41,491 bases of DNA. Origin: Bacteroidales bacterium (lineage in GTDB: Bacteria > Bacteroidota > Bacteroidia > Bacteroidales > F082). Numbering within the stretch: the first letter of the stretch is position 1; each line of letters opens with the position of its first letter. This document shows, one piece after another, positions 11 through 33,420 of the stretch. The position numbers were made by a program, and so were the translations under genes. The stretch is from contig JAFYUH010000024.1 in assembly GCA_017549605.1 (NCBI GenBank), forward strand, positions 1 to 41,491. The letters are read 5' to 3'. Under the pieces are notes generated by a model. That model saw nothing but the letters and a program-made list of their open reading frames with translations. It was not told where the DNA came from and did no database searches.

Positions 11-60
11 CCTCAGATCCTCAATTCCTAATTCCTAATTCCTAACTCCTTATTCCTAAC
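11..60. repeat. Family C array (TAAYTCC units) overlapping the TolC stop
   Basis: Degenerate 7-bp units of the type TAATTCC/TAACTCC run from the window edge to about position 60. The minus-strand TolC gene ends inside this array: its TAG stop is at 28-30 and its last nine or so residues are read from repeat units. The array probably continues beyond the window. Confidence 0.85.
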
Positions 61-1341
61 TATCCCTTTCCCCATATAAACATCCAAAATCTTTCTTTGC
101 AAGATGAATGAATATTTGTTTTGGATGAAGTTGTTCAATGCGTTGAGGTAGCTGTTCTGTTGCTGGAGCAGTTCTACCGCTGTGATGGAACCGTATTGGA
201 ACTGAATGTTATAAGCCTCGAATGATTTAAGGTATGCGTCTTTTGTCTGTTTCGATACGTTGTATTTGTTGTATGAAGAAATCATGTTTTGATATTCTTG
301 CACTATGTTCTGGCGTACCGACAACACATTTTGTTCGTAAGAAAGCTGCTGCTGTTCTAATGCGATTTCGCTTTGCTGTACTCTCAACTTTGATGCGCCT
401 CTGTTGTATATTGGTATGTTTACAGATACGCCTATCTGTTCTGAAAACTGATTTGCAAGCTGTTCGCCTATGTTTTTGTAATTCTGATGTCCGGTGTTGA
501 CGCCAGCGCTGAGGTTCACTGTTGGATAATAGTTTGCCTTGGCGATGCGTAAGGATTGTTTCGCAATCTCTATGTTGTAGTTGCTTATCTTCAGGTTTGG
601 AGAATATTCAAGCGACTGTGCTACCGACTCTTCGAGACTTGGGAATGAAGACAATGCGTTGATGATGTCGCTGTCAGGACCTACGATTTCCAGTTCTGTC
701 GTAGGATCCATTGAAAGCAGCACCTTGAGGTTTATCATATTGCTTTCAATATCCATCTGTGTGTCGACGATATTATTGGTGTCTGATGCATATTGAGCAG
801 CGAGCAGGAGGTAGTCGCTCTCCAGAATAGAACCGACTTCGTATTTGCGTTTGCCTTGTTTCATTGCCTCGCGGCTGCTGTTCAGCACAGACTTCTGGTA
901 GTTGAGCAGTTCCTGATTGCCGAGTATCGTCAGGAATGATTGCAGAATTTGTATTGAAAGGTCGTCGTCATAGCGTTGGATCTCCAGTGCCGACTGCTCG
1001 CAAGAGAGCTTTTCCTGTTCTATAGTAGCGTTGATCTGTCCGCCTTGGTAGATTGGCATCCCGGCATTGAGACCGACGTTGCCAGAGAAACCTGAACCGG
1101 AAGCGTTGTTGGAGAAGCTTTCTCCTAAAGAGGCGCTCACCGATGGAAGACGCTGTTCTTTCGACTGTTCATACGAAAGCTGCTGCGACTTGTTCGAGAG
1201 TTCCATCGACTGACGCTCGTAGCTGTTACTGAAGGCATATTCTAGACATTCCTCAAGAGTAAACCTCAGAGTTTTGCTGTCATCCTGCGCATACATCGCA
1301 AGAGGAAACATAAGTAAAAATAAGATAAAACGTATTTTCAT
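28..1341 (-). CDS. TolC family outer membrane efflux protein
   Basis: Outer-membrane channel of the TolC/OEP family, which forms the exit duct for tripartite efflux pumps or type I secretion. The 437-residue product begins with a signal peptide (about residues 1-18, ending in YAQ). It then shows the two-fold repeated, Gln/Ser/Asn-rich long helices typical of OEP proteins, with the paired strand motifs VGLNAGMPIYQGG near residue 90 and IGVSVNIPIYNRG near residue 305. Length is normal for the family. No inner-membrane or adaptor partner is visible; these may lie beyond position 1. A TAnnTTTG box sits at 1361-1368 just upstream. The last nine or so residues (VRNKELGIRN) are encoded by a repeat array that overran the original 3' end, so the native C-terminus was probably slightly different. 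Pump substrate cannot be inferred. Confidence 0.9.
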   Translation of the reverse strand: MKIRFILFLLMFPLAMYAQDDSKTLRFTLEECLEYAFSNSYERQSMELSNKSQQLSYEQSKEQRLPSVSASLGESFSNNASGSGFSGNVGLNAGMPIYQGGQINATIEQEKLSCEQSALEIQRYDDDLSIQILQSFLTILGNQELLNYQKSVLNSSREAMKQGKRKYEVGSILESDYLLLAAQYASDTNNIVDTQMDIESNMINLKVLLSMDPTTELEIVGPDSDIINALSSFPSLEESVAQSLEYSPNLKISNYNIEIAKQSLRIAKANYYPTVNLSAGVNTGHQNYKNIGEQLANQFSEQIGVSVNIPIYNRGASKLRVQQSEIALEQQQLSYEQNVLSVRQNIVQEYQNMISSYNKYNVSKQTKDAYLKSFEAYNIQFQYGSITAVELLQQQNSYLNALNNFIQNKYSFILQRKILDVYMGKGIVRNKELGIRN

Positions 1342-1360
1342 AACTTTTAAATTCTTGTCA

Positions 1361-1368
1361 CAAAGATA
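1361..1368 (-). promoter_or_regulatory. Bacteroidota -7 promoter box for the TolC gene
   Basis: The minus strand reads TATCTTTG, a perfect TAnnTTTG box, 20 bp upstream of the TolC start. No clear TTTG -33 element is seen. Confidence 0.7.
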
Positions 1369-1431
1369 TAATTAAAACAAGAAAATAAAAGTTTGTTTAA
1401 AATGAAATGGAGAAAAAGTTGAATGAACGAA

Positions 1432-1545
1432 GAACTCTGAGCTCTGAACTTGGTGTCTAGGCGACTTGGTGTCTTGGTGTCTTTCTTTTTGGGCGTTCCG
1501 GCTCATAGCAAAAAAAAGTTCAACGGCCAAAAGCCAAAAGCCTTA
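1432..1545. repeat. Mixed short-period arrays (families B and H, plus CCAAAAG units)
   Basis: Three low-complexity patterns follow one another between the TolC promoter and the end of the S4 gene. First come TGARCTY heptamers (1432-1450), then 8-bp CTYGGTGW-type units (1450-1481), then CCAAAAG units (1525-1542). The same order of families B then H recurs inside the helix-hairpin-helix gene at 16519-16619. Confidence 0.75.
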
Positions 1546-1548
1546 GTT

Positions 1549-1926
1549 CTAAAAGTCTCCTTTAATCCTGTCAATCTCTCTTCGGTCTTTTTTCGTCGGA
1601 CGTCCTGCGCCTCGGTCTCGGTATTCGACCTTGAAGGCGTGGAGAAATTCTATTCTTTCGTATTCTTCCTTCGAGGTCCTGTCGATATAGACTTCTTCGA
1701 CTTGTTTTGGGGAAACACGGCTCTTAGGAATGCTTTTCACTTCTATGACTTTATGCAACTGTCCAAGTTGAACCTGTATCAGCTCGCCGATCTTGACCTC
1801 GCGTGAAGGCTTGATGGAAGAATCGTCAATCTTCACCTTGCCGCCTTTGCAAGCGTCAGCAGCGAGAGTGCGCGTCTTGAAAAGACGAGCACACCAAAGC
1901 CATTTATCTATTCTGAGTTCTTCCAT
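1549..1926 (-). CDS. S4 domain RNA-binding protein (Hsp15-like)
   Basis: A 125-residue protein with an S4 RNA-binding domain at about residues 4-50 (RIDKWLWCARLFKTRTLA, then GGKVKID). It has a basic C-terminal tail (RPTKKDRR) as in Hsp15/HslR, the heat-shock protein that binds 50S subunits carrying stalled nascent chains. Length matches Hsp15 (about 130 residues). It lies on the minus strand downstream of der and is separated from it only by a repeat hairpin, so co-transcription with der is plausible. The annotation as ribosome recycling factor is by family; nothing else here tests it. Confidence 0.85.
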   Translation of the reverse strand: MEELRIDKWLWCARLFKTRTLAADACKGGKVKIDDSSIKPSREVKIGELIQVQLGQLHKVIEVKSIPKSRVSPKQVEEVYIDRTSKEEYERIEFLHAFKVEYRDRGAGRPTKKDRREIDRIKGDF

Positions 1927-1931
1927 ATATA

Positions 1932-2005
1932 AATTAGGAATGAGGAATTAGGAATGAGGAATTATTTTGTTTCCATTCCTAATTCCTAACTCCTAATTCC
2001 TAATT
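1932..2005. repeat. Inverted pair of family C arrays (hairpin)
   Basis: The left arm (1932-1963) is made of AATTAGG/AATGAGG units and the right arm (1974-2005) of CCTAATT/CCTAACT units. The two are imperfect inverted complements separated by about 10 nt, so the transcript between der and the S4 gene can fold into a long hairpin. Confidence 0.8.
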
Positions 2006-2008
2006 GAA

Positions 2009-3316
2009 TTACTTTTCTCTGAAGAATAATTGAATTGGAACGCCGTTGAAGTTCCAGTTCTGTCTGATCTTGTTTTCCAAGAAACGGCAATATGATTCTT
2101 TGACGTCTTTTGGCAAGTTGCAGAAGAAGATGAATTGTGGAGTTGGACTCTTCAACTGTGTGATGTATTTAATCTTGAGATAACGGTTTCTTGATGCCAC
2201 TTGTGGTGGTTGAGCAGCGATGATCTCTAACATTGTGTCGTTAAGTTCGCGTACTGATATTCTGCGTTCGCGGTTTTCATACACTTGGTGTAATGCTTCA
2301 AGCACGCGGAATGTTCTTTGGCGGTTAATCGCTGATGTGAAGATGATTGGATAATCTGTGAAAGGAGCTGTCTTCTCTCTGATCATCCTTTCATATTGAA
2401 GGTGTGTGTTAGAGTCTTTGTTGACCAAGTCCCATTTGTTTACGATGACGACGAGGCCTTTCTTATTTTTCTCGATGAGACGTAAGATGTTCATATCTTG
2501 AGCCTCGAAGCCTTGTGTCGCGTCGATGATGAGAGCTGCTACGTCACATTCTTCGATAGCGCGGATTGAACGCATCACTGAGTAGAACTCTATATTTTCT
2601 GAGACCTTGCTTTTCTTGCGGAGACCAGCAGTGTCAACGAGGACGAAGTCCATGTTGAAAGCGTTGAAACGAGTGTTGTTGCTGTCGCGTGTTGTTCCTG
2701 CGATGTCTGTCACGATATGTCTGTCGTGGCCTAAGAAAGCATTGATCATTGATGACTTGCCTACGTTAGGGCGACCTACGAGCGCGAAGCGTGGAAGTCC
2801 TTCGTATGTGTCAGTTGTATCGTTTGGAAGATGTTTTACGACTTCATCGAGAAGTTCGCCTGTTCCTGTTCCTGTCATGGCTGAGAAAGCGAAGATGTCA
2901 CCGAGACCTAATGAGTAGAAGTCAGCGATGTTGCTTTCTTTGTTAGGGATGTCAGTCTTGTTGACTGCGAGGAACACTTTTTTCTTGCAACGACGTAATA
3001 TTAAAGCAACCTCTTTGTCAAGGACGTGGAGTCCGTCTTTTCCGTCAACGACGAATATGATGACATCAGCCTCATCGATGGCAAGGTCAACCTGTTTTCT
3101 AATCTCTTCTTCAAAAATGTCGTCTGAACCAACGACATAACCACCTGTGTCTATCACGGTAAACGATTTGCCATTCCAGTCGCTGTGTCCGTAGTGACGG
3201 TCACGAGTCACACCACTAGTCTCTTCAACAATGGCTTGACGAGTTTGAACCAAACGATTGAAAAATGTCGATTTACCTACATTAGGTCTTCCTACTATTG
3301 CAACAATATTACTCAT
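2009..3316 (-). CDS. der: ribosome biogenesis GTPase Der (EngA)
   Basis: Essential double GTPase that acts in late maturation of the 50S ribosomal subunit. Both G domains are intact: GRPNVGKST at residues 9-17 with DTGG at 56-59 and NKTD at 119-122, and GRPNVGKSS at 181-189 with a second DTAG and NKWD motif. The C-terminal KH-like domain follows (about residues 350-435). Length of 435 matches the family. A TAnnTTTG box at 3340-3347 lies 24 bp upstream of the ATG. The neighbour era, also a ribosome-assembly GTPase, lies upstream in the same direction. Confidence 0.97.
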   Translation of the reverse strand: MSNIVAIVGRPNVGKSTFFNRLVQTRQAIVEETSGVTRDRHYGHSDWNGKSFTVIDTGGYVVGSDDIFEEEIRKQVDLAIDEADVIIFVVDGKDGLHVLDKEVALILRRCKKKVFLAVNKTDIPNKESNIADFYSLGLGDIFAFSAMTGTGTGELLDEVVKHLPNDTTDTYEGLPRFALVGRPNVGKSSMINAFLGHDRHIVTDIAGTTRDSNNTRFNAFNMDFVLVDTAGLRKKSKVSENIEFYSVMRSIRAIEECDVAALIIDATQGFEAQDMNILRLIEKNKKGLVVIVNKWDLVNKDSNTHLQYERMIREKTAPFTDYPIIFTSAINRQRTFRVLEALHQVYENRERRISVRELNDTMLEIIAAQPPQVASRNRYLKIKYITQLKSPTPQFIFFCNLPKDVKESYCRFLENKIRQNWNFNGVPIQLFFREK

Positions 3317-3339
3317 ATCAATTAAATTTCTGTGATTTG

Positions 3340-3347
3340 CAAAGATA
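3340..3347 (-). promoter_or_regulatory. -7 promoter box for der
   Basis: The minus strand reads TATCTTTG 24 bp upstream of der. A family E repeat array begins only 4 bp further upstream and occupies the place where a -33 element would be expected. Confidence 0.7.
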
Positions 3348-3351
3348 ATAA

Positions 3352-3429
3352 AAAGACAAAAGACGAAAGACGAAAGACAAAAGATTTTTTAGATGTTCAA
3401 CTTTAGCCTTTAGTCATTAGTCTTTTGCC
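3352..3429. repeat. Family E array (AAAGACRA units) with inverted partner
   Basis: The left arm, 3352-3384, holds 8-bp units AAAGACGA/AAAGACAA. The right arm, 3401-3429, holds TTTAGCC/TTTAGTC/TTAGTCTTT units of opposite polarity, so the pair can form an imperfect hairpin between era and der. Confidence 0.75.
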
Positions 3430-3436
3430 ATTAAAA

Positions 3437-4318: not shown

Positions 4319-4354
4319 GTTTATTTTTTTTAAAACTTAGATTGTTTCTTTTAC

Positions 4355-4362
4355 TATCTTTG
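4355..4362 (+). promoter_or_regulatory. -7 promoter box for the PagL-like gene
   Basis: TATCTTTG, a perfect TAnnTTTG box, sits 26 bp upstream of the gene start at 4389 (ATGAAGAAA). No clear TTTG -33 element is present. Confidence 0.65.
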
Positions 4363-4385
4363 AACGCAAAAATAATAAACATTTT

Positions 4386-5675: not shown

Positions 5676-5806
5676 TATAGAGTATAGGATTTAAAGTCGT
5701 TGTGTGCTGGGTGAATTATAAGTATATTGATAATCTGTTGTTTAGCTTTAAAATTTATAGTATACTTTTTTTATAAAAAAAACTTGACTTGTAAGGAAAA
5801 TTGATT

Positions 5807-6561: not shown

Positions 6562-6613
6562 TCTGTTGTCTGTTGTCTGTTGTCTGTTGTCTGTTGACCG
6601 TAGTCTGTAGTCT
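6562..6613. repeat. Family A array (seven WCYGTWG heptamers)
   Basis: Five TCTGTTG units in a row are followed by ACCGTAG and TCTGTAG with no indels. The array lies just beyond the 3' end of the minus-strand kinase-deaminase gene, whose stop codon is at 6619-6621. Confidence 0.9.
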
Positions 6614-8345: not shown

Positions 8346-8458
8346 AGACAACAGACTACAGACAACAGACTACAGATTTTTTAGTTATGAGTGACGAGCC
8401 TTGAGCTTTGAGCATTTTGCCAACAGCTCGTAGCCCAGAGCTCATGGCTCACAGCCAA
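8346..8458. repeat. Family A array followed by family F inverted arrays
   Basis: Positions 8346-8376 hold GACAACAG/GACTACAG units. Positions 8388-8458 hold GAGC units followed by GCTC units of opposite polarity around a TTTTGCC centre. Together they fill the gap between the M20 gene and the LOG gene. Confidence 0.8.
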
Positions 8459-8461: not shown

Positions 8462-9652
8462 TCAATTCAAAAAAGACACTATCTTTTCAAAGACATCAAT
8501 CCCAGTGTCGATGATTTCGTCTTCGAATTCGTAAGTAGGACTATGAAGAGGTTCGTGTTCGAAACCGCAGCCTATGCCGAAGAGACAAGCTGGACAAAGA
8601 CTTCCGAATTTTCCGAAGTCCTCTGACCACGGGAATGGTTCTTTTATGTTGTTGACAGACAACTTTAAATCTTTAGCCGCTTGCTCAACGAGTTCGGTCT
8701 CTCGACTGGAGTTCATCGTCGCGGCAAAGGCTTCGTGTATGCTGTGCGAGAATTTTAACTTGAATTCTTTGGCGACATATTCTGAGAGAGCTATCGTGCT
8801 GTCGGTCAGTTTCTTCAGACTGTTGTCATCCTGACTTCTCAGCGTGAGCCATATCTCGGCATGACCTGGTGTTACGCCGAAAGTCTCTTCGCCGATAACG
8901 ACGTGTGTGACTGTAAGTGTCGTGTGATATTTGTCTTTTTTGAGATTCTCATATTTCTTTTGGAAGGCATCGAGCAGAGTCGTGACCGTGCGCTGAGGGT
9001 TGTTGCCTTTCTCTGGTTGCGAGGCGTGTGACGTCGCTCCGTCGAAGATGAGTTTCAATCCTAAAGAGGCAGATGCAAAACAGTCTTTCTTCAAGATGAT
9101 CTGATGTTTTGCATAAGCAGGAAGATTGTGTAATGCGAAAGCCGCATTGAATTTTAACTCTTTGAATAAAGGGTCGTTGATGACAGCCTGAGCGCCTTCT
9201 CCTGTCTCTTCGGCAGGTTGGAAGAGAAGTATCACGTTGCCTTTAGCAGGACGCTTCTTCCCATAACGCATCGCCAGTCCGCATAAAATTGTAGCATGAC
9301 CATCATGACCGCAACGATGGGAGTATTGACGTTGAACTTTGAACTCTGAACTTTGAGCTTTGAGCTCTGAACCTTGAACTTTGTTGTGAGCAAGGTCTGT
9401 TGTCTGTTGTCCGTTGTCTGTTGACATCAATGGAATATTAAGTCCGTCAATGTCGGCGCGCAGTAAAATGTTTTTTCCTTCTTCGAGACCTTTGTATATT
9501 GCAATGATTCCGTAGCCTCCGACGTTTTTATAATGAATATCGGGATTTGTCTTCTCTAAAAACTTATTGATAATCTTATTCGTCTCTTTCTCCTGTCCTG
9601 AAAGTTCGGCGTTTTTGTATAACTTATGTCTTAGTGTTTCAAGTGCTTTCAT
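8462..9652 (-). CDS. M20 family amidohydrolase (peptidase M20D type)
   Basis: Metal-dependent amidohydrolase of the IAA-amino-acid/hippurate hydrolase and N-acyl-amino acid deacetylase group, cytoplasmic, 396 residues. Motifs: RADIDGLNIP at 65-74, HRCGHDGH at 112-119 (metal-binding His and Asp), and PAEETGEGA with the catalytic Glu pair near residue 145. The C-terminal metal ligand lies in the PWSEDFGKF region. Substrate is unknown. The odd feature is the stretch from residue 77 to 110, which is Gln/Ser/Lys/Val-rich and encoded by two repeat arrays (9331-9425). In homologues this loop is shorter, so about 15-18 residues appear to be extra. All metal ligands I can see are intact, so the enzyme may tolerate the insert. 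Confidence 0.9.
   Translation of the reverse strand: MKALETLRHKLYKNAELSGQEKETNKIINKFLEKTNPDIHYKNVGGYGIIAIYKGLEEGKNILLRADIDGLNIPLMSTDNGQQTTDLAHNKVQGSELKAQSSEFKVQRQYSHRCGHDGHATILCGLAMRYGKKRPAKGNVILLFQPAEETGEGAQAVINDPLFKELKFNAAFALHNLPAYAKHQIILKKDCFASASLGLKLIFDGATSHASQPEKGNNPQRTVTTLLDAFQKKYENLKKDKYHTTLTVTHVVIGEETFGVTPGHAEIWLTLRSQDDNSLKKLTDSTIALSEYVAKEFKLKFSHSIHEAFAATMNSSRETELVEQAAKDLKLSVNNIKEPFPWSEDFGKFGSLCPACLFGIGCGFEHEPLHSPTYEFEDEIIDTGIDVFEKIVSFLN
9331..9425. repeat. Family B and A arrays inside the M20 gene
   Basis: TGAACTT/TGAGCTT/TGAGCTC heptamers (9331-9383) are followed by TCTGTTG/TCCGTTG heptamers (9394-9425). The whole block is in frame and translates as a Gln/Thr/Ser-rich stretch immediately before the HRCGHDGH motif. 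Confidence 0.88.
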
Positions 9653-9671: not shown

Positions 9672-9703
9672 AGTCTGTTGACTGTTGACTGTTGTCCGTT
9701 GAC
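9672..9703. repeat. Family A array between the M20 gene and manA
   Basis: Four to five WCYGTTG heptamers lie 20 bp upstream of the divergent M20 gene start and about 60 bp upstream of the manA promoter box. Confidence 0.85.
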
Positions 9704-9761
9704 TTCAAAAGTAAAAATATTTTTTTAATGATTTTAATATTTCTATAAAAAGGAAAAGTAT

Positions 9762-13932: not shown

Positions 13933-14069
13933 TGACAACAGTCAACGGACAATAGTCAACAGACATTGTCCATAATAATAGCCTATCACAGAGACGTATC
14001 AATTTGATACGTCTCTTTTGTTTTTATATCCAAAAAAATCTGTTGTCCGTTGTCTGTTGTCCGTTGACT
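13933..14069. repeat. Inverted pair of family A arrays around a terminator
   Basis: The left arm (13933-13966) reads GACAACAG/GTCAACGG units and the right arm (14039-14069) reads TCTGTTG/TCCGTTG units of opposite polarity. Between them sits a classical terminator hairpin. The right arm ends 5 bp before the purE promoter box. Confidence 0.88.
13990..14025 (+). terminator. Rho-independent terminator after the Omp28 gene
   Basis: An 11-bp perfect stem (13990-14000 with 14006-14016) with a 5-nt loop is followed by TTTTGTTTTT. Confidence 0.9.
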
Positions 14070-14606: not shown

Positions 14607-14685
14607 AGACAACGGTCAACGGTCAACATCCTTGAGTATACATTTATGGACAAAGTCTGTTGTCCGTAGTCTGTTGTCTGTTGAC
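14607..14685. repeat. Inverted pair of family A arrays between purE and rhomboid
   Basis: The left arm, 14607-14627, holds GACAACGG/TCAACGG units and starts 2 bp after the purE stop. The right arm, 14655-14685, holds GTCTGTTG/TCCGTAG units and ends 5 bp before the rhomboid ATG. Confidence 0.87.
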
Positions 14686-14690: not shown

Positions 14691-15413
14691 ATGAGAAATC
14701 AAGACGAGAAACGCCTTCTGTTTGCCAGTGCCATTATCCCGACGATATTAGCCGCGATAATGTGGGTGGTGAAGATCATAGAGGTGCTTTTTCATCTTGA
14801 TTTTTCTTTTCTCGGTGTCAAGCCTGTCAGCCCTGAAGGCATACCGGGAATTTTCCTCTTTCATTTCATTCACGGCGACTGGGAACATCTTTTCGCCAAC
14901 ACAATCCCGATTTTGGTTTTAGGCTCGGCATTGTATTATTTCTATAGACCTATCGCAAACAGGATACTCCTTATATTAATATTCTCTGTCGGATTGCTGA
15001 CGTGGTGCGGAGCGCGTGGCGGCATTCATATCGGGGCCAGCGGTTTGGTGTATGGACTCACGTTTTTCCTTATGCTGAGCGGTTTCATAAGAAGAGACAA
15101 GAAACTCATCATAATATCTTTAGTCGTGGTCTTTTTATACGGAAGTCTCGTCTGGGGCTTGTATCCAAAATACGCCATAGAAAACAACATCTCCTGGGAA
15201 GGACATCTCAGCGGCTTTGTTATGGGAATCGTACTCGCCATTTATTATAAAGGAGAAGTGTGGTATGGGAACGAGAACGGGGACGAGAACGGGATTTGGG
15301 ATGATGATGACGATTGTGACGATGACATTGATCTGGAGACACAGAGACCATATTGGGATGTTCCAGAACCAGATAAAGATGAACTGACGGTGAAGTATAG
15401 GTTTAGGAGGTGA
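14691..15413 (+). CDS. rhomboid family intramembrane serine protease
   Basis: Membrane-embedded serine protease of 240 residues with about six transmembrane segments. The catalytic serine is Ser117 in GASG (115-118), paired with His172 in GHLSG (171-175). The conserved HxxxN motif HLFAN is at 66-70 and an L1-loop like sequence precedes it. Substrates are unknown. The C-terminal tail (about residues 190-240) is very acidic, with runs of Asp, and begins with an imperfect repeat of NENGDENG coded by hexamer units at 15267-15294. The tail is probably cytoplasmic and disordered. Confidence 0.92.
   Translation: MRNQDEKRLLFASAIIPTILAAIMWVVKIIEVLFHLDFSFLGVKPVSPEGIPGIFLFHFIHGDWEHLFANTIPILVLGSALYYFYRPIANRILLILIFSVGLLTWCGARGGIHIGASGLVYGLTFFLMLSGFIRRDKKLIIISLVVVFLYGSLVWGLYPKYAIENNISWEGHLSGFVMGIVLAIYYKGEVWYGNENGDENGIWDDDDDCDDDIDLETQRPYWDVPEPDKDELTVKYRFRR
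15267..15294. repeat. Family G hexamer array (GRGRAC) in the rhomboid tail
   Basis: GGGAAC, GAGAAC, GGGGAC and GAGAAC follow each other directly in frame and code for NENGDENG. The units differ by transitions only, like the other families. Confidence 0.7.
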
Positions 15414-15425: not shown

Positions 15426-15494
15426 TTCAGAACCTCAAAACCTCAAAACTTCAGAATTTTCTGAGATTTTGAGGTTTTGAACTTCTGAGTTTTT
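15426..15494 (+). terminator. Family D inverted array acting as a likely terminator
   Basis: Two 29-nt arms (15426-15454 and 15461-15489), made of AAAACCTC-type octamers and their complement, match at 24 of 29 positions around a 6-nt loop. A TTTTT run follows. It lies directly after the rhomboid stop codon and before the promoter of the candidate RNA. It contains the left copy of the 44-bp repeat (15427-15470). Confidence 0.75.
15427..15470. repeat. 44-bp direct repeat, left copy
   Basis: Identical over 44 bp to 16069-16112. The two copies bracket a 598-bp segment that holds the candidate RNA and the candidate nuclease gene. Confidence 0.92.
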
Positions 15495-16024: not shown

Positions 16025-16056
16025 ATTTTTAATTTTTGGTTAAACTATAACTACAA

Positions 16057-16138
16057 AACTTCAAAACCTCAGAACCTCAAAACCTCAAAACTTCAGAATT
16101 TTCTGAGATTTTAAATTTCTGAATTTCTGAGATTTTAA
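16057..16138. repeat. Family D array, right flank of the cassette
   Basis: AAAACCTC/AGAACCTC/AAAACTTC octamers are followed by CTGAGATTTT-type units of opposite polarity. The array includes the right 44-bp copy at 16069-16112. The stop codon of the helix-hairpin-helix gene (16135-16137) lies at its edge. Confidence 0.88.
16069..16112. repeat. 44-bp direct repeat, right copy
   Basis: Identical to 15427-15470. The copies diverge immediately at both ends, although both lie in longer arrays of the same octamer. Confidence 0.92.
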
Positions 16139-16854
16139 AACCCAAGATATCTCTCTAATCTTTCATCAACATTTCTTCCAACGACCTTTAAATAAGTTTC
16201 CCAGTCTTTTATCATTCCCTTGCTTTCTCTGTAATTGACAATCTTTTTCACGTCATCATATTCTATATAAGGATGGCGTAAAATAGTTTTGAAATCATCA
16301 GTGTTGACTTTGACTTTCCTTAATTCTATAGAGTCGATGATAATGAGGTTTTCGATGTTTGACATTCTCGTGCTGTCGAAAGCATAAACCTCGAGCAGCT
16401 GTTTCTTGTCGATGAAACCTCCTAATTTATTTCTGTATTCTACTATGTTTCTCGCAAAGAAAGGTCCAATGCCAGGCAGTGACTGCAGCTCAGTGGTGTC
16501 AGCGGAGTTTATATCTATAGAACTCAGAACTTTGAACTCAGAACCTTGAACTTTGAGTTTTGGGTTCAGAACTTTGAACTCAGACTTGGTGACTTGGTGT
16601 CTCGGTGTCTCGGTGACTTTATTTTTCGTGGAAGAAGTCTGTTGTCTGTTGACTGTTGTCCGTTGACTATTATAATACTCTTCAACAGCTTTGTCATGGA
16701 GTGCCATTATCGAATCTAGATTATGTAAAGGTTTTTTAACATTTGAGGGTTTATTTGCGACAAAAAAATTAGCAGCGATGAGGAGAAATATCACCGCTGC
16801 TAAAACTATAATCGCTACCCGTTCACCCTTAGTGAACGTCAGGAAACTTTTCAT
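16135..16854 (-). CDS. ComEA-like helix-hairpin-helix protein with membrane anchor
   Basis: A 239-residue protein starting at ATG 16854; upstream in-frame codons are repeat. One transmembrane segment (about residues 12-33) is followed by a long linker and then DNA-binding helix-hairpin-helix domains. The first reads INSADTTELQSLPGIGPFFA (115-134) and a second HhH-like part covers about 160-239 (TILRHPYIEYDDVKKIVNYR). ComEA proteins bind incoming DNA during transformation; in Bacteroidota such proteins are widespread and their role is less clear. The linker, residues 63-112, is encoded by three different repeat families in a row (16519-16667), so it is probably unstructured and variable in length between strains. 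Confidence 0.85.
   Translation of the reverse strand: MKSFLTFTKGERVAIIVLAAVIFLLIAANFFVANKPSNVKKPLHNLDSIMALHDKAVEEYYNSQRTTVNRQQTSSTKNKVTETPRHQVTKSEFKVLNPKLKVQGSEFKVLSSIDINSADTTELQSLPGIGPFFARNIVEYRNKLGGFIDKKQLLEVYAFDSTRMSNIENLIIIDSIELRKVKVNTDDFKTILRHPYIEYDDVKKIVNYRESKGMIKDWETYLKVVGRNVDERLERYLGF
16519..16667. repeat. Families B, H and A inside the helix-hairpin-helix gene
   Basis: Three arrays follow each other in frame: TGAACTT-type heptamers (16519-16584), CTYGGTGW octamers (16585-16619) and WCYGTTG heptamers (16637-16667). They code for the whole linker between the membrane anchor and the HhH domain. Confidence 0.87.
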
Positions 16855-16868
16855 AAATTTATTTTTTG

Positions 16869-16930
16869 CAATGAGCTGCGAGCAATGAGCTGTGAGCATT
16901 GGGCTCAAAACTCGTTGCTCATAGCTCTTA
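16869..16930. repeat. Family F inverted arrays before the HhH gene
   Basis: The left arm holds AATGAGCT/GCGAGC/TGTGAGC units. The right arm holds CTCGTTGCTC/ATAGCTCTTAGCT units of opposite polarity. The stop codon of the sodium symporter gene (16928-16930) is inside the right arm. Confidence 0.78.
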
Positions 16931-21921: not shown

Positions 21922-21955
21922 GAATCGCTGTGAAGGTAACTTCTATGATGAATTA

Positions 21956-22000
21956 AGACGTGTCAATGCTCTTTTGTTTTTAAGGAACATTGACGCGTCT
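21956..22000. terminator. Convergent hairpin between hdeD-like gene and tadA
   Basis: A 13-bp stem (21956-21968 with 21988-22000, one wobble) encloses a T-rich 19-nt loop. It lacks a strong T tract on either side, so it is a possible rather than a certain terminator. Confidence 0.55.
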
Positions 22001-22015
22001 CTACAATATTCCTAA

Positions 22016-22900: not shown

Positions 22901-24277
22901 TTATCTGTTGAATGTCAATCTCTTACCTCTGTAATCTTCTTTGAAATTGCCGTTGTGATATACTAATTCGCCATTTACGAAAGTGTGTGTTACGCTGCAG
23001 CTGAGCTTCATGCCTTCGTAGGCAGTCCATCCGCATTTGTAATATACATTCTCGTTGCTGATGGTCTGCTCTTTTTTAGGGTCTATCAATACCAAATCGG
23101 CATAGTATCCTTCTCTGATATAACCTCTCTTGTTGATTCTGAATAATGTAGCAGGATTATGAGACAGAAGTTCCACTACTTTTTCTATTGATAAATGCTG
23201 TTGACTGTTGACTGTTGACTGTTGTCCTTTTAATGCGAGTTCTAATGCTCCTAACAAAAGATGCTGCACTGATGTTCCTCCAGAAGGTGCTGTGAAATAT
23301 GGCTTGTTTTTCTCTTCTAAAGTATGAGGTGCGTGGTCTGTCGCCAAGATGTCAATGCGATTGTCAATACATCCTTGTATCAAAGCTAATTTGTCGCTTT
23401 CGGTCTTGACAGCAGGGTTGCATTTAAGCAATGTCTTTTTATTTGCATAGTCTCTGTCGTCGAAGAGAAGGTAATGTAAACATGTTTCAGCTGTTATCTT
23501 CTTGTCTTTCAAAGGAATATTGTTGCTGAATAATTCTATTTCCTTTGCTGTTGAAAGGTGGAGGATATGTAGCTGTGTTCCGAATTTTGAAGCGAGTTCA
23601 GCTGCGTATGATGATGTCTTGTAGCAAGCTTCTGCGCTTCGGACGAGTGGGTGTATCGATGCTGGAGCATCATCGCCATATTTAGCTTTGAAGATTTCGA
23701 TGTTGTTGCGGATGATGGCTTCGTCTTCGCAGTGTGTGGCTACGAGACAAGGAGCTTCTTTGAAGAGTATTTCTAATGTTGACTCGTTGTTAACCAACAT
23801 GTTTCCTGTACTTGAACCCATGAATGCCTTGATGCCGCAGATGTTCTTTGGATCTGTTTTCAAGACTTCTTCGATGTTGTCGTTGGAAACGCCCATATAG
23901 AAAGAATAGTTGGCCATTGACTTCTCGGCAGCTATGTCGTATTTGTCTTGCAACAACTGCTGTGTCAAAGTGTTAGGCACGGTGTTAGGCATATCCATAA
24001 ATGATGTCACGCCACCGGCAACAGCAGCGCGGCTTTCTGAAGCGATGTCGCCTTTGTGTGTCAAGCCTGGATCTCTGAAATGCACTTGGTCGTCGATGGC
24101 TCCAGGAAGAAGTAAGAGTCCTTCTGCATTAATGACTTCGTAACCAACAAAATCAGCGTCTGCATCAGCAGCCTGTGTCGGTATTATTTTTTCTATTGTA
24201 TCGCCTGAAATGACAACACTTGCCATGAAGGATTTGCCTTCGTTGACAAGTGTTGCGTTTTTAATTATGTAGTTCAT
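22901..24277 (-). CDS. pyrC: dihydroorotase (class I-type amidohydrolase)
   Basis: Cyclises N-carbamoyl-aspartate to dihydroorotate in pyrimidine synthesis; 458 residues. Barrel motifs are present: VHFRDPGLTHKGD near residue 65, KAFMGSSTGN with the Lys that is carboxylated in relatives, ATHCEDE, LHILHLST and ATDHAPH with the catalytic Asp. The first metal motif reads DQVHF instead of the usual HVHF, so one of the two His ligands is Gln. A short in-frame insertion (GQQSTVNSQQH, from a family A array at 23198-23227) lies in a loop after the last conserved barrel helix. The start overlaps the stop of the upstream glycosyltransferase (ATGA). Given the ligand change, an allantoinase-like or other amidohydrolase role cannot be excluded. 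Confidence 0.85.
   Translation of the reverse strand: MNYIIKNATLVNEGKSFMASVVISGDTIEKIIPTQAADADADFVGYEVINAEGLLLLPGAIDDQVHFRDPGLTHKGDIASESRAAVAGGVTSFMDMPNTVPNTLTQQLLQDKYDIAAEKSMANYSFYMGVSNDNIEEVLKTDPKNICGIKAFMGSSTGNMLVNNESTLEILFKEAPCLVATHCEDEAIIRNNIEIFKAKYGDDAPASIHPLVRSAEACYKTSSYAAELASKFGTQLHILHLSTAKEIELFSNNIPLKDKKITAETCLHYLLFDDRDYANKKTLLKCNPAVKTESDKLALIQGCIDNRIDILATDHAPHTLEEKNKPYFTAPSGGTSVQHLLLGALELALKGQQSTVNSQQHLSIEKVVELLSHNPATLFRINKRGYIREGYYADLVLIDPKKEQTISNENVYYKCGWTAYEGMKLSCSVTHTFVNGELVYHNGNFKEDYRGKRLTFNR
23198..23227. repeat. Family A array inside the dihydroorotase gene
   Basis: Four WCTGTTG heptamers are in frame and code for Gln/Ser/Thr/Val/Asn residues between the helix GALELALK and LSIEKVVELL, a surface loop in homologues. 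Confidence 0.88.
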
Positions 24278-27596: not shown

Positions 27597-27606
27597 CATA
27601 AAATTT

Positions 27607-27693: not shown

Positions 27694-27697
27694 AAAA

Positions 27698-28714: not shown

Positions 28715-28738
28715 AGTACAATACTTTTTGAGAGACAC

Positions 28739-28746
28739 CAAAGGTA
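28739..28746 (-). promoter_or_regulatory. -7 promoter box for pdxA
   Basis: The minus strand reads TACCTTTG, a match to TAnnTTTG, 25 bp upstream of the chosen pdxA start. Confidence 0.6.
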
Positions 28747-28795
28747 TAGTAAAAAAAATAAAAAATCAAGAATTATTTTATTTTTAGCATTGTTT

Positions 28796-30034
28796 TTATA
28801 ATCCTTTATAAATCATAAGGTTGATGTTCTTATTGTCGAAAATTTCGTTTGCAACGCTAAGAATATCATCGGCTTTCAGATTCCTTATTTTTCTAACTGT
28901 TTCTGATAAAGGTTCTATTGTTTCTTGAGAGAAACCGGCGCGTGTCATAGACAAGAGTTCTCCTAAACCTGATTCGCAGCTGAGTGCCAATTGACCGACC
29001 AACTGATTCTTGGCATTGGATAGCTGAATTGTTCCGAGTTTGTTGTCCTTTAGTTTATTTAATTCCTTAAAGACTAAATCTACGGCTTTGTCAAGAGAAT
29101 GAGGGTCTACACCCATATATATCGAGAAGTTTCCTGTGTCGGAATAAGCGTTGTATTGTGATTCGATGGTGTATGCGAATCCGTATTTCTCTCTGATATT
29201 AAGGTTTAGTCGAGAGTTCATGCCTGGTCCGCCTAATATGTTGTTCAGCAATACCATCGGCATTTTAAGAGGACTGTCGATATGATATGCGATGCCGCCT
29301 ATGATGCAGTGAGACAGATGGTTGTTTCTTTCTTCTATCTTGGTGAAACTTGGCAGGCCTTCGAATTTGTTTCTGTGGCATTCTGTGGCTGTTTGCTGGT
29401 AATCACCGAAATAGGATATGATCTTGTTTTTGAATTTTGTAAAAGGAATATCGCCTATTGTCGCGACGACCATTTTACTTGTTGAATAATTATTCTTTAG
29501 GAAACGGCATAAGTCGTTACGGGTGTAGTTGCTGACTAAATCAGTTGTTCCCAATATGTTACGGCCCATCTCGTGACCTTTGTAGAGGTTGTTCTCGAAT
29601 TCGTCGTAAATCTCTTCTGCCGGAGTGTCGCGGTAAGAGTTTATTTCGTCTATTATGACTTCTTTTTCTTTCTCTACCTCATTGGCAGGATAGGTGCTGT
29701 TGAAAGCGACGTCTGCGATAAGCTCGATCGCTTTGTTGTAATGTTCTTTCAGGAAAGAAGCGTGGATGCAGGTTTCTTCTTTGGTTGTGTAAGCGTTAAG
29801 CTCACCACCTACATTTTCGAGACAACTCAGTACGTGGTAAGCTTTACGCTTTTTAGTTCCTTTGAATAACATATGCTCGATGAAATGAGCCAGACCGTTT
29901 TCGTTGTCAAGTTCATCGCGCATGCCTGTGTTTACCATAAGCGCAATATGTGCAATGGCACCAGGTCTATGTTTGTGAAGTATTTTTATACCATTAGGTA
30001 ATATATGTTCGGAAATGATACCTTCTTCAGACAT
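28796..30034 (-). CDS. M16 family zinc metallopeptidase
   Basis: Pitrilysin/processing-peptidase type protease of 412 residues. The inverted zinc motif HFIEH (HxxEH) is near residue 47 in NGLAHFIEHMLFKGTKKR, and the third ligand Glu lies in the EVEKEKEVIIDEI helix about 75 residues later. The second M16 domain follows, including the FAYTIESQYNAY stretch. As a single-unit M16B member it would work as a dimer or with an unseen partner. It has no signal peptide, so it is probably cytoplasmic. It lies 29 bp downstream of the lipoprotein gene at 30064 and may be co-transcribed with it. Confidence 0.92.
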   Translation of the reverse strand: MSEEGIISEHILPNGIKILHKHRPGAIAHIALMVNTGMRDELDNENGLAHFIEHMLFKGTKKRKAYHVLSCLENVGGELNAYTTKEETCIHASFLKEHYNKAIELIADVAFNSTYPANEVEKEKEVIIDEINSYRDTPAEEIYDEFENNLYKGHEMGRNILGTTDLVSNYTRNDLCRFLKNNYSTSKMVVATIGDIPFTKFKNKIISYFGDYQQTATECHRNKFEGLPSFTKIEERNNHLSHCIIGGIAYHIDSPLKMPMVLLNNILGGPGMNSRLNLNIREKYGFAYTIESQYNAYSDTGNFSIYMGVDPHSLDKAVDLVFKELNKLKDNKLGTIQLSNAKNQLVGQLALSCESGLGELLSMTRAGFSQETIEPLSETVRKIRNLKADDILSVANEIFDNKNINLMIYKGL

Positions 30035-30063
30035 ATTGGTTTATAGGTTTTTAGTTTAGGCCC

Positions 30064-31116
30064 TTATTTCATCCAAATGTCGAAAGGATTGCCGCCTTTT
30101 GCAGTTGGAGCTTCGCTTCTGCCAGATAACCAGTTATTTTTTTCTGCGAGTCCGTCATAGTCTTTCAACACTCTGAATGAATGTTTTGCATACATATTTG
30201 GGTTGCCGCTAGTTTCAAGCAACACGACTGCTGTGTGGAAGTCTTCGATACCAGCACTGGTTTTCTTGCCACTGAAGATGAAAGATTGTTGTGCGTAATA
30301 ACCTTGTACATAACCGTCTACTACATAGTAACATGTGAAGTAGTTGTCGTTACCTGTTATCTTAACGCCATATTGGATTTCTTCTACGTATTTATTTGCC
30401 AATGAGTCGTATTGTTTTCCGTAGAATGTCATCTCTTTGTTGATATATGAGAAGCCAAGGTAACGATCTGAATAGAATTGCAATGAGTCTGGTTTCTCTG
30501 CGTATGATTCATATATAAGGGCATGAGGAGCTGAGACATATTCACCTTTCATATCAGGAGGATTTGAACCTGAATAAACAGGAAGGTGTTTGGTTACATC
30601 TTCATATATCTCTGTAGGAAGTACGTAATTAGGGAGTTTGTGCACTAAGTTGTCTTCGTCTTTTTTTGATAACTCACCTTTATAGTAACCTTCAATATCG
30701 TTGCTGTATTGGTCTGTACACTTGATATCTATTGAGTAACCATCTGAAGATCTGTTTATTACCAATTTTCCAGTTTTTATGTAGCCGTTGTCGAAGTTGC
30801 CGTTTTCGTTATATCCCAAAATCCATTTGCCTTCAATATTGTTGAAGGTTGTGCTAGGAAGGCTTTCAGCTTGTGGTGATACGAGAGAGAAGATTAGGAA
30901 GTTTTCGCCTTTTTCATCGTAAAGACGTAAGTCTAAATTGAAACCGTTTTCTGTTTCTCCGTTGTTGATGATGACGCCAGATATGATTTCGTAAGTGTTA
31001 TCTCCAATGGTGAAGTAGTTTTTTGGTTTGTTGTTTCTACCCCAGCATGATGCGAAGAATATAATAACCAAGATTAATGAACTGATTTTGATTAAGTTTG
31101 AAGCTAGTGTTTTCAT
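30064..31116 (-). CDS. hypothetical lipoprotein
   Basis: I do not recognise this 350-residue protein. It has a lipoprotein signal with lipobox FFASC near residue 24, then charged residues (WGRNNKPKNYF) and a body rich in Tyr, Asn, Asp and Gly with alternating strands. Parts of the two halves look alike (the NYFTIGDNTYEI start and later ITGNDNYFTCYYV), which may point to a repeated beta-sandwich. Such lipoproteins are usually surface or periplasmic. A promoter box at 31133-31140 precedes it and the M16 peptidase follows. Confidence 0.75.
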   Translation of the reverse strand: MKTLASNLIKISSLILVIIFFASCWGRNNKPKNYFTIGDNTYEIISGVIINNGETENGFNLDLRLYDEKGENFLIFSLVSPQAESLPSTTFNNIEGKWILGYNENGNFDNGYIKTGKLVINRSSDGYSIDIKCTDQYSNDIEGYYKGELSKKDEDNLVHKLPNYVLPTEIYEDVTKHLPVYSGSNPPDMKGEYVSAPHALIYESYAEKPDSLQFYSDRYLGFSYINKEMTFYGKQYDSLANKYVEEIQYGVKITGNDNYFTCYYVVDGYVQGYYAQQSFIFSGKKTSAGIEDFHTAVVLLETSGNPNMYAKHSFRVLKDYDGLAEKNNWLSGRSEAPTAKGGNPFDIWMK

Positions 31117-31132
31117 ATTCTAAATATTTTTG

Positions 31133-31140
31133 CAAAGTTA
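31133..31140 (-). promoter_or_regulatory. -7 promoter box for the 30064-31116 lipoprotein
   Basis: The minus strand reads TAACTTTG 17 bp upstream of the ATG. Confidence 0.65.
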
Positions 31141-31217
31141 AGAAAATATTTTTTTTGAGGACTGGTTTTTGGCATAAATAAATTGCTGTATAATAACATA
31201 AATTGCAAAACGTTTAT

Positions 31218-31225
31218 TATATTTG
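31218..31225 (+). promoter_or_regulatory. -7 promoter box for the 31246 barrel gene
   Basis: TATATTTG lies 20 bp upstream of the ATG at 31246. Confidence 0.65.
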
Positions 31226-31245
31226 CAATTCATAAATTTTTAAAG

Positions 31246-32013
31246 ATGAAACTAAGATTATTTTCCTTTTTATTGTTGGTGGTATTCCCTTTTATTGCAG
31301 AAGCACAGAAAGATATAAGGAAAGAGTGTGTGCCAACAACGATGTTTAGCGCGACATATTCTTATCAGTTTCCCGGAGCTGATACGAAAGTTTTGTATGG
31401 CAACAATTCAACCATAGGACCAAGCATCGTTTATAAAACCGATAAAAACTGGATGTGGACTGCCAATGCTAACTTTATTTTTGGAGAGAAGATAAGAGCG
31501 TCTCGAGAAGATATATTAGGTATCATCTTGGATAATAGCGGTGAGCTTATTACTGGCGACGGTATCTGGGGCAGCTATGCGATGTTCCAACGCGGTTATC
31601 ATATTCAAGCTAAAGTGGGCAAGATATTTAATGTTTGCGCTCCTAATCCAAACTGCGGCTTCTTCATCAATGGCGGTTTGGGTTATCTCTTGAACAGAAT
31701 AAGAATAGAGTTCTCATCATATGCTTCAACTCCTCCAAACCTTGACGACGATTATCGTTATGGCTATGACAGAATGCGTGGCGGTTTCGCTTATTCAGGA
31801 GAGATCGGATATATGTATATGAGTAACTCGAGAGTGTTGAACTTCTCTGTCTCTCTTGAATTCACTCAGGCTCATACCAAACCATTACGTCAGTGGGATT
31901 TCAACCTCATGGGTCCAGACCTTAAGACTTATCTCGACAGATATATGGGAATACGCTTTTCCCTTTATATCCCTACATATAAAAGAATGCCTGCTGAATA
32001 TTATTACTATTGA
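31246..32013 (+). CDS. putative outer membrane beta-barrel protein
   Basis: A 255-residue exported protein with a signal peptide (residues 1-20, IAEAQ). Strand-rich sequence with many aromatics follows, including a glycine-rich GFFINGGLGYLLNRIRI segment and an ending in YYY. It looks like a small 8-10-strand barrel. I cannot assign a family or function. The start at 31246 is set by the signal peptide; the longer reading from 31183 would include the promoter box. WaaA begins 2 bp after the stop, suggesting co-transcription and perhaps a role in the lipopolysaccharide-bearing outer membrane. Confidence 0.75.
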   Translation: MKLRLFSFLLLVVFPFIAEAQKDIRKECVPTTMFSATYSYQFPGADTKVLYGNNSTIGPSIVYKTDKNWMWTANANFIFGEKIRASREDILGIILDNSGELITGDGIWGSYAMFQRGYHIQAKVGKIFNVCAPNPNCGFFINGGLGYLLNRIRIEFSSYASTPPNLDDDYRYGYDRMRGGFAYSGEIGYMYMSNSRVLNFSVSLEFTQAHTKPLRQWDFNLMGPDLKTYLDRYMGIRFSLYIPTYKRMPAEYYYY

Positions 32014-32015
32014 TC

Positions 32016-33254
32016 ATGAATATCTTATACTCTCTCGCCATAAGATTATACAGTGGACTGGTGTCCATTGCGGCTTTGTTTGGAAACAAGAAGGCTCAGC
32101 TTTGGTGGAAGGGTAGAAATAATCAATGGAATAATCTGAAGTCTCCTGACAAAGATGACGAATGGATCTGGGTTCATGTGTCTTCTTTAGGTGAGTTCGA
32201 ACAGGGGCTTCCTGTCATAGAGAGCCTTAAAGCTAAATATCCAAAATATAAGTTGTTGCTGACATTCTTCTCTCCTTCAGGTTATGAACCTAGGAAGAAT
32301 TTCCAGCTTGCTGATAAGGTGGCATATATGCCTTCTGATACAAGAAGCAATGCCAAGAAACTCATAAAGAACTTTAATATCAAAGCCGCTTTCTTCGTCA
32401 AGTATGACTTTTGGTTTAACTATATGAAAGTCTTGAAGGAGAACGATATACCTTTGTATTATATATCTGCTTTGCTTCATCCTAATCATTATTTCTTTAA
32501 ATTCTATTCTTTCTGGTTTAGGAAACAGTTGTTTAATGTGACTCATTATTTCGTACAGAATGATGAGACGGCCAAGTTGTTGAAGTCTATAGGAATAGAA
32601 AATACAACAGTGACTGGCGACACTCGTTTCGATAGGGTTTTTGAGATAGCGAAACAGTCGAAGTCGTTCTCTGAGATAGAGGAGTTTATAGATGGAAGAC
32701 AATGTATCATAGCTGGCAGTTCTTGGCCTTCAGATGAGAAGTTTATCATTCCGTTCTCTAAAAAAATGCCAGAGAATTATTGTTTGATTATCGCACCACA
32801 CGATGTATCTGATTCTCATATAAAACAGATCACATCTCAACTTGATGACTATGTTTTGTATAGTCAACGGTCAACAGACAACGGTCAACAGACAACGTCT
32901 AAGGTTCTTGTACTTGATACTATAGGAATCTTGAAGCAGATATACAAATACGCTCGTTTTGTTTATGTCGGCGGCGGTTTCATGAGCAGTATTCATAATA
33001 CGCAGGAGGCTCTTGTCTTTGGTTGTCCTGTCGTGATTGGTCCTAAGTATCATAAATTCGTCGAGGCAGTCGATCTCGTGAGAGATGGCGGTATGTTCTC
33101 TGTGAACAACCAGCAGGAGTTTGATGAGATATTCGGACAGTTGATGAATGACGAGGGATTCTATAACAAAGCCTCGGGCATCTGCCAGGATTATATCCAA
33201 CTGAGCATCGGCGCAACAGATAAAATCATGAAGTTCTTGAGTTCTGAGCTTTGA
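32016..33254 (+). CDS. waaA: 3-deoxy-D-manno-octulosonic acid transferase WaaA (KdtA)
   Basis: GT30 enzyme that adds Kdo from CMP-Kdo to the lipid A precursor at the inner membrane. The 412-residue product has an N-terminal membrane anchor (about residues 1-20), then WIWVHVSSLGEFEQGLPVIE with the conserved SxGE Glu. The two Rossmann domains follow, with SGDTRFDR-like TGDTRFDRV and the C-terminal VGGGFMSSIHNTQEAL with the CMP-Kdo binding site. Residues coded by 32862-32897 (SQRSTDNGQQTT) are an in-frame repeat insertion in a loop before the second Rossmann strand. The C-terminal SSEL and the TGA stop are already part of the long 33238-33420 array. Confidence 0.95.
   Translation: MNILYSLAIRLYSGLVSIAALFGNKKAQLWWKGRNNQWNNLKSPDKDDEWIWVHVSSLGEFEQGLPVIESLKAKYPKYKLLLTFFSPSGYEPRKNFQLADKVAYMPSDTRSNAKKLIKNFNIKAAFFVKYDFWFNYMKVLKENDIPLYYISALLHPNHYFFKFYSFWFRKQLFNVTHYFVQNDETAKLLKSIGIENTTVTGDTRFDRVFEIAKQSKSFSEIEEFIDGRQCIIAGSSWPSDEKFIIPFSKKMPENYCLIIAPHDVSDSHIKQITSQLDDYVLYSQRSTDNGQQTTSKVLVLDTIGILKQIYKYARFVYVGGGFMSSIHNTQEALVFGCPVVIGPKYHKFVEAVDLVRDGGMFSVNNQQEFDEIFGQLMNDEGFYNKASGICQDYIQLSIGATDKIMKFLSSEL
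32862..32897. repeat. Family A array inside waaA
   Basis: About five GACAACGG/TCAACAG-type heptamers are in frame and code for a Gln/Thr/Ser/Asp-rich loop. Confidence 0.88.
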
Positions 33255-33420
33255 ACTTTGAACTCTGAGCTTTGAACTTTGAGCTTTGAACTTTGAGCTC
33301 TGAACTTTGAGCTCTGAACTCTGAGCTCTGAACCCTCAGTTCCTCAATTCCTCAGTTCCTCAAATCCTTAATTCCTCAGTTCCTTAGTTCCTTAATTCCT
33401 TAATTCCTCAGCTCCTAATT
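33238..33420. repeat. Long compound array: 14 heptamers then 10 octamers
   Basis: Fourteen consecutive TGARYTY heptamers (33238-33335) pass without indels into ten consecutive TYARHTCC octamers (33336-33415) plus a partial unit. The array fills the whole convergent gap between waaA and mfd, and both stop codons (waaA 33252-33254, mfd 33415-33417) lie inside it. Confidence 0.95.

Follow-up and report, generated by a model that had tools for sequence, protein, structure and literature searches.

The 41,491-nucleotide contig JAFYUH010000024.1 of a Bacteroidales bacterium (lineage F082, assembly GCA_017549605.1), hereafter called the window, carries many tandem arrays of 7- and 8-bp units, most often with five copies of a short core. 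Arrays in the window and elsewhere in this genome peak at four spacers and have ends tied to the unit core, unit columns that do not change stand beside columns with several states that vary without linkage, one array is an insert whose site relatives leave empty, and arrays at syntenic places are replaced by arrays of other families in sister species. From comparison with two sister species it seems likely that the arrays are written in and replaced much faster than ordinary DNA changes. An initial annotation had described the arrays themselves; the preferred unit number, the place-dependent composition, the swapping of families between species and the insertion inside genes go beyond it.

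The window is contig 196 of an assembly of 2.53 Mb in 205 contigs that is 84.75% complete (G000 below). Comparison was with G009 and G027, two sister species among 35 congeners, with one genome per species, and the DNA sampled amounted to 656 kb of G000 (window included), 770 kb of G009 and 322 kb of G027; array densities in these samples are biased upward because many of the stretches were picked for containing matches to the A unit family. Arrays were detected with Tandem Repeats Finder (TRF) in the window and with a second, consensus-free period detector in the genome samples, using shuffled sequences as a control, and an earlier chance test used the first 362-kb sample of G000. Names such as A7 or H8 give unit family and period, and the spacer number is (length-3.5)/period. 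One contig, C61 (loci L040 and L041), is 87.0% identical to G009 and 80.4% identical to L048 / G000 contig C183 over the same genes and is therefore probably a contaminant in the bin, from a third species; it has 1 array in 28.8 kb and was kept in the counts, where it contributes 1 of 292 arrays and 2 of 32 syntenic pairs, one of these among 8 same-family pairs.

TRF recovers in the window the arrays that the initial annotation had placed there, including the run at 6562-6613 for which an exact unit length had been claimed (period 7, 7.4 copies, 0% indels) and the B array followed by a C array at 33237-33420. In the 362-kb sample 86 period-7 runs were observed against 0.0 expected and 40 period-8 runs against 0.2, with 0-8 runs for each of periods 3-6 and 9-11. 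The consensus-free detector gave 210 period-7 and 82 period-8 arrays in G000 (shuffles, 0 and 0), 111 and 71 in G009, and 40 and 6 in G027; over these three genomes shuffled sequence gave 0-1 arrays and periods 5, 6, 9, 10 and 11 gave 0-17 each. On the shuffle and expectation counts an origin by chance, including the base-composition alternative that the annotation had raised, is rejected, and the phenomenon is of greater extent than the annotation had described.

Eight unit families had been proposed, of which A-F and H are found in the window with units that recur across the genome. Family G, hexamers GRGRAC at 15267-15294 (TRF period 12), is set apart from the class because it lies within an open reading frame (ORF) and period 6 is rare (3 in 656 kb). 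Units in G000 form 18 clusters with at least 4 runs each, and the families that are frequent in G009 are its own and differ from the G000 ones. The annotation had called for counts of each consensus in relatives: with up to 2 mismatches a 17-mer A pattern has 415 matches in G000, 66 in G009 and 243 in G027, and 0-3 in each of the remaining 33 congeners, so that it is abundant in G000 and in 2 of the 35. One genome from another family of the same order has 65 matches, with only 2 exact degenerate 15-mer matches. A phylum-wide search, which covers the A pattern alone, found its 24-mer form in 4 of 296 genomes, own genome included; among the matches listed, the named genomes with the A pattern are Bacteroidota, many cyanobacteria and scattered members of other phyla. 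By location, ORFs of 200 or more codons contain 74 of the 292 G000 arrays; 179 are outside them and 39 straddle a boundary.

The peak in spacer number is at 4.0 and is clear for period 7 in both G000 (77 of 210 arrays) and G009 (38 of 111) and for period 8 in G009 (26 of 71); it is weak for period 8 in G000 (17 of 82). At 4.5 spacers there are 10 period-7 and 9 period-8 arrays in G000, and 8 and 5 in G009. The commonest lengths are 31-33 nt (period 7) and 35-36 nt (period 8), which suggests that count rather than length is limited. Of 100 A7 arrays, 73 measure 30-33 nt and 3 are longer than 34 nt, and in 95 of 105 A7 runs the last base is that of a GWC or the one following it; 22 of 29 AATKCAY runs start at one common unit position. 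Other families take the same form, (AAYTCCT)4AATT, (AATKCAY)4AATT and (AAAGACN)4AAAG, with an octamer equivalent (RAGWCRCC)4RAG, and among runs defined by strict patterns those at the peak length are 11 of 48 for C7 (31-33 nt), 15 of 29 for AATKCAY (32-33 nt) and 11 of 38 for H8 (35-36 nt). The broad length distribution of the slippage type is seen for B and C8 and not for the arrays overall, given the four-spacer peak (weak for G000 period 8). Among period-7 arrays taken without selection, those from other Bacteroidota are likewise commonest at 31-32 nt (24 of 99), and those from cyanobacterial loci have a broad tail reaching 211 nt.

Variation within the arrays is confined to particular columns. 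Changes of C/T or A/G type were said to dominate, and they do: 632 within-array deviations comprise 419 transitions, 133 A/T changes, 78 G/T or A/C and 2 C/G, a transition/transversion ratio of 1.97 as compared with 1.07 between two homologous contigs of the bin. That the changes fall at set positions is strongly borne out, with unchanging columns beside columns that have 14-54% minority states. For A8 in G009, column 1 is G in 170 of 170 letters, column 3 is C in 204 of 204 and column 4 is T in 202 of 202; column 8 has A 77, C 3, G 17 and T 69, and two variable columns have minority states of 15% and 54%. In 15 H8 arrays columns 2, 3, 5 and 7 show zero changes in 277 letters, and three others change at 31%, 41% and 14% (column 4, T 41%). 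The profiles were built pattern-free, and because the detector weighs all columns equally the contrast between invariant and variable columns is not its product.

No linkage between columns is found in 51 four-unit A7 arrays (mutual information z 0.48), which form 43 distinct strings with 10 identical pairs, compared with 9.0 expected for independent columns. At the Y position (z -0.9) and the last W (z -0.7) adjacent A units resemble each other no more than other units do, and at the first W they do so weakly (z 2.0); in pattern-selected named loci of many phyla neighboring units are alike, as expected from slippage. The column pattern, the lack of extra likeness between neighboring A units (first W excepted) and the peaked length uphold the initial view that plain slippage or decay is insufficient.

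Turnover was followed for the 74 G000 arrays, out of 325 at a slightly looser threshold, that have a syntenic gap in G009 or G027, both of which carry such arrays. At 42 of these places the relative has no array passing the detector, no counterpart here meaning none above threshold (at window position 1932 G009 has short C-type stretches below it); at 27 its array is no more than 15 nt from the corresponding position, and at the other 5 it is further away. At the matched positions 19 of 27 arrays belong to another family and 8 to the same one (30%; random pairs, 9%). The alignment of orthologous gaps that had been suggested as a check shows, then, that in a sister species an array is often not found or is of a different family. 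Some swaps change the period from 7 to 8. In the second array at L229:14549-14613 spacers of the TGTT type are of the TTGTT type in all four units, with GWC cores and flanking A- and T-tracts kept, and at L218:3049 and L232:9997 an inverted pair of one family faces the sister's inverted pair of another. A rule that swaps keep the core class is not upheld, as unlike families also swap (L218:3048, L235:15573, L229:13038). Very long AACCTTA and GAAGTRAT arrays are present in G009 at L249, syntenic to L229:13037-13078.

One insertion is within a conserved amidohydrolase gene, where a clean 27-nt, in-frame insert is present in G000 alone among the 30 loci aligned; the 29 congener proteins without it come from a set of 36 other genomes that have a match. 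The two nearest relatives show no remnant of a seed unit at this site, nor is a target-site duplication, as expected of an insertion sequence or miniature inverted-repeat transposable element, seen at the insert, the relatives being too distant to fix the junction bases. Since the aligned DNA of G000 and G009 is only ~81% identical and yet invariant columns are near-unchanged within a genome, the arrays must be young or continually homogenized. The arrays of the window are as follows.

18-59, plus strand: C7 array of AAYTCCT units (TRF, listing).
1449-1483, plus strand: H8 array (CTYGGTGW), directly 3' of a short B stretch (TRF, sequence).
1932-2005, unstranded: inverted C7 pair (1932-1964 and 1975-2005) with a loop of ~12 nt (TRF); a shorter version is at the G009 syntenic place.
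3351-3384, plus strand: E7 cassette (AAAGACN)4-AAAG, adjoining a TTATCTTTGC promoter-like element on the minus strand (TRF); G009 has E7 with other variant bases.
3403-3433, plus strand: E2 array (TTAGYCN) (TRF).
6562-6613, plus strand: longest A7 array, 7.4 units, the sole run above 36 nt among 100 A7 arrays (TRF).
8346-8376, minus strand: A7 cassette upstream of TTATCTTTGC (TRF); an H8 cassette is at the same G009 place.
9332-9383, plus strand: B7 array within the peptidase M20 ORF 8462-9652 (TRF; Pfam PF01546).
9395-9423, plus strand: A7 cassette beside this B7 array, in the same ORF (TRF, Pfam).
9675-9704, plus strand: A7 cassette (TRF); the G009 counterpart is a TTAAACC-type stretch.
13934-13965, minus strand: A7 array adjoining a ATTGTCCAT leader-like motif (TRF).
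14039-14066, plus strand: A7 cassette flanked by an A-tract and TTTTTTTATCTTTGC (TRF).
14655-14683, plus strand: A7 cassette with a ATGGACAAA leader (TRF).
15427-15494, unstranded: D8 arrays, direct then inverted, forming an imperfect hairpin (TRF, sequence).
16054-16139, unstranded: D8 arrays, direct then inverted (TRF, sequence).
16520-16668, plus strand: B, H8 and A7 arrays in series within the helix-hairpin-helix ORF 16135-16908 (TRF, Pfam); the G009 syntenic stretch has no array.
23198-23231, plus strand: A7 cassette in the Amidohydro_1 ORF 22901-24277, which we take to be dihydroorotase-like (27-nt in-frame insert; protein alignment, Pfam).
32863-32897, minus strand: A7 cassette within the Kdo-transferase ORF 32010-33254 (TRF, Pfam).
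33237-33333, plus strand: long B7 array at the 3' end of the Kdo-transferase ORF, breaking the five-core rule (TRF); the syntenic G027 stretch lacks it.
33334-33420, plus strand: long C8 array abutting the B7 array and also breaking the five-core rule (TRF).

Several motifs accompany the arrays. A leader TGGAYAAW, with two-state positions of its own, stands directly 5' of 14 of 100 A7 arrays (for example at window 14640-14654) and resembles one inverted A unit; we also regard it as loosely DnaA-box-like (TTGTCCACA on the other strand). A second leader ending in CCCAAA, mostly of the form [AG]TA[CT][AG]CCCAAA, precedes 6 of 100 A arrays (such as L229 + 4026 and L034 - 4063). Promoter-like elements TATCTTTG are present in G000 and, together with the named matches, point to a member of Bacteroidales; a recurrent word of type GACGCGTCTCTAC is found near gene ends (window 21950-22010), and CGCGTCTCTAC occurs 8 times in the 362-kb sample versus 0.04 expected.

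Our tentative preference, which we hold at clearly less than even probability, is that the arrays are discrete cassettes, each written in one piece through the reiterative copying of a template that is short and degenerate. The independence of two-state columns in arrays that are young implies that variation enters when an array is created, or is reshuffled at once, and the similar count at two periods together with core-tied ends suggests a set number of reiteration cycles; it is for these two reasons that template copying is preferred. A cassette would most often have five cores, each 3-4 nt long, separated by four spacers of 3-5 nt, the machinery copying its template about four times running. 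Each family would correspond to one template, whose ambiguous positions would give rise to the combinatorial variants, and the cassettes may be neutral or selfish, tolerated in free sequence, for example in gaps, upstream of promoters and in protein linkers. Rather doubtful, in our estimate, is the fuller proposal of a DNA-writing system that makes five-core, four-spacer cassettes from short degenerate templates, with a fresh draw at the set positions in each insert. Its templates would differ from one species to the next, and orthologous sites would in this way be overwritten by other families. If writing does occur, strains of one species would acquire each five-core cassette in a single step.

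Neither an enzyme nor a template RNA for writing was found, although no search was aimed at a template RNA candidate. RVT_1 (PF00078) is over the cut-off in G000 and G009, and the case for a telomerase-like reverse transcriptase is weakened by G027, where the domain stays below it (11 bits, E 0.3) despite 243 A matches. Such an enzyme is therefore not required in every carrier, although its absence from G027, which is 91% complete, could reflect incompleteness or divergence. G000 has an RVT_1 reverse transcriptase at L215:547-2766, between a small ORF and another ORF, in a neighborhood that to us looks like a diversity-generating retroelement. Mutagenesis by such an element does not account for the arrays, since B and C8 vary at A/G and C/T columns on the same strand, where changes at adenines of one strand would be expected, and unchanging A columns exist. 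A role as a universal all-frame stop cassette is likewise rejected, as the commonest A units, GTCTGTT and GTCCGTT, have no stop in any frame on either strand.

In addition to the result for G027, several observations weigh against the preferred reading. The G000 period-8 distribution is weakly peaked (16 arrays at 3.0 spacers, 12 at 3.5, 17 at 4.0 and 9 at 4.5), and the G000 period-7 distribution has 50 arrays at 3.5 spacers, as counted by a detector that trims array ends carrying a variant base. B7 and C8 runs reach 94 and 104 nt, 46 of 210 period-7 arrays in G000 are at least 34 nt long, and the period-7 arrays listed for G034, G063, G020, G023 and G001 are of other families and more variable in length (few arrays, small samples). 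Composition depends on position along the array (p 2e-4, 0.008 and 2e-4): C occupies the first spacer in 3 of 51 cases compared with 57 of 153 elsewhere (p 2e-4), and the fifth core is GAC in 27 of 51. Arrays are thus more than strings of interchangeable units, which a one-unit template would not predict. Same-family matches at 8 of 27 places exceed the 9% of random pairs, so that some arrays are inherited, and a 14-nt length difference between homologous contigs means that slippage also acts.

A close rival, which we rate slightly lower, is a recombining pool in which cassettes copy one another by ectopic gene conversion or microhomology template switching. The two-state columns would then be founder variants, and frequent in-register exchange would erase linkage and hold length, so that place-specific composition without linkage is what would be expected. 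Both the TGGAYAAW leader and the GGACAAWGWC sites, 16 of 19 of which are followed by an array, suggest that flanks travel with arrays; leader and position effects speak for the copying of longer cassettes and for this reason the pool is kept in consideration. By eye, ~3 nt are shared with the array at two junctions (L224:1705 and the amidohydrolase insert). However, drift in such a pool predicts rare variants everywhere, and in the invariant columns these are absent or almost so; there is little per-unit sequence in common between families that replace each other, and an equal count in period-7 and period-8 families is left unexplained by exchange alone. An earlier proposal, slippage during the replication of heptamers already resident, combined with point mutation, is in keeping with the dominance of periods 7 and 8, the 14-nt difference, the long B7 and C8 arrays and mixed arrays that stay in register, and slippage has been put forward for heptamers (Mrazek 2007 as cited in passages of PMC4679880 and PMC4692102). 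As a sole cause it is nonetheless unlikely: independent origin of one unit family at ~100 sampled places is improbable, and the peaked length, in-phase ends, seedless empty site and column pattern all argue against it. The shared count of two periods, the column pattern and family replacement are hard to obtain from slippage alone and so point to an active DNA-adding process, which would add DNA to bacterial chromosomes and to proteins.

By analogy with ribbon-helix-helix proteins, each family might instead be a selected binding site, recognized by a protein that assembles along tandem repeats of 7 or 8 bp. Invariant, two-state and independent columns resemble a weight matrix, TANNTTTG stands no more than 25 bp from 36 of the 292 arrays of G000, a share about twofold the 5.9% of random intergenic 32-mers, and according to passages of PMC9499535 the parS site of pSM19035 needs at least 4 contiguous 7-bp WATCACW repeats, in several orientations. 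Selected sites should persist, though, and for 42 of 74 a counterpart was not detected, while at 19 of the 27 matched places the family has changed; 74 of 292 arrays are inside ORFs of at least 200 codons, a functional minimum implies a lower edge in length where the data show more of an upper edge, and the 18 unit clusters would require many proteins. Binding arrays are accordingly an improbable explanation. Hairpin-forming elements, whose inverted pairs would arise by fold-back copying, are less probable by far. Inverted copies of one family do make up 20 of 62 neighboring pairs within 60 bp, as compared with 9.6% for random pairs, and 16 of 33 in G009, but complementarity of the arms is no better than between random family members (mean percentile 0.42 and 0.32) and most arrays are outside such pairs. 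The arm comparison gives no support to a fold-back origin of the inverted pairs.

Short tandemly repeated repetitive (STRR) sequences are the heptamer repeats of cyanobacteria, and the occurrence of the present arrays at many places and patchily across phyla makes them dispersed bacterial heptamer arrays of the STRR/TAACTGA kind. The statement that Bacteroidota have no matching system does not hold, given TAACTGA arrays in five Bacteroidetes (reported in passages of PMC4679880) and the A consensus in other Bacteroidota and in cyanobacteria among the matches listed. While the general kind is known, the preferred count, degenerate columns and family swapping are apparently undescribed, with a small chance that the arrays are categorically new: in open-licence PubMed Central literature we recognized no description of fixed-count heptamer or octamer cassettes and saw none of invariant plus two-state columns across many families or of replacements at orthologous sites that alter the period.

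Structurally the arrays are similar to parS of pSM19035, bound by Omega, in having at least 4 contiguous 7-bp units, W positions and several orientation arrangements; as described in passages of PMC9499535, however, parS serves as the centromere of a plasmid and has six sites and a single unit family, unlike the many families here, and parS-like binding fits poorly because array sites are lost and swapped between species. The proposed writing resembles the action of DRT10, a telomerase-like bacterial reverse transcriptase that makes tandem DNA repeats by reiterative copying of a short RNA template, although the passages of PMC12632851 concern 9-nt repeats as cDNA and do not mention chromosomal arrays, and array-bearing G027 has no reverse transcriptase over the cut-off. 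In the P6b stem of the Nostoc trnL intron (Class I/II) 7-nt repeats have likewise had their class replaced repeatedly in evolution (passages of PMC4476775), but at a single locus under RNA structure constraint, whereas the present arrays occupy many loci and their inverted arms show no excess complementarity. Heptameric simple sequence repeats are over-represented in intergenic DNA, as here, with slippage the mechanism proposed there (Mrazek 2007, from the same citing passages of PMC4679880 and PMC4692102); heptameric repeats of Xanthomonas and Nostoc are described in passages of PMC4692102, and the Nostoc unit GGGGA(C/T)T, as given in the passages available, has a two-state position like those of the present units. 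For the TAACTGA system, MacGregor (2015) reports heptamer arrays in Beggiatoaceae, in cyanobacteria and in five Bacteroidetes, where other heptamers are interspersed in some of them, with related Cyanothece strains differing mostly by 7-nt steps and by presence, and leaves their movement open ('no mechanism is evident'; passages of PMC4679880). Like the present arrays, these are tandem heptamers at many places, patchy across phyla and in ORFs in a minority of cases; according to the same passages related heptamers are rarely or never found there, whereas the present genome combines many families with two periods and shows both a preferred count and family swapping.

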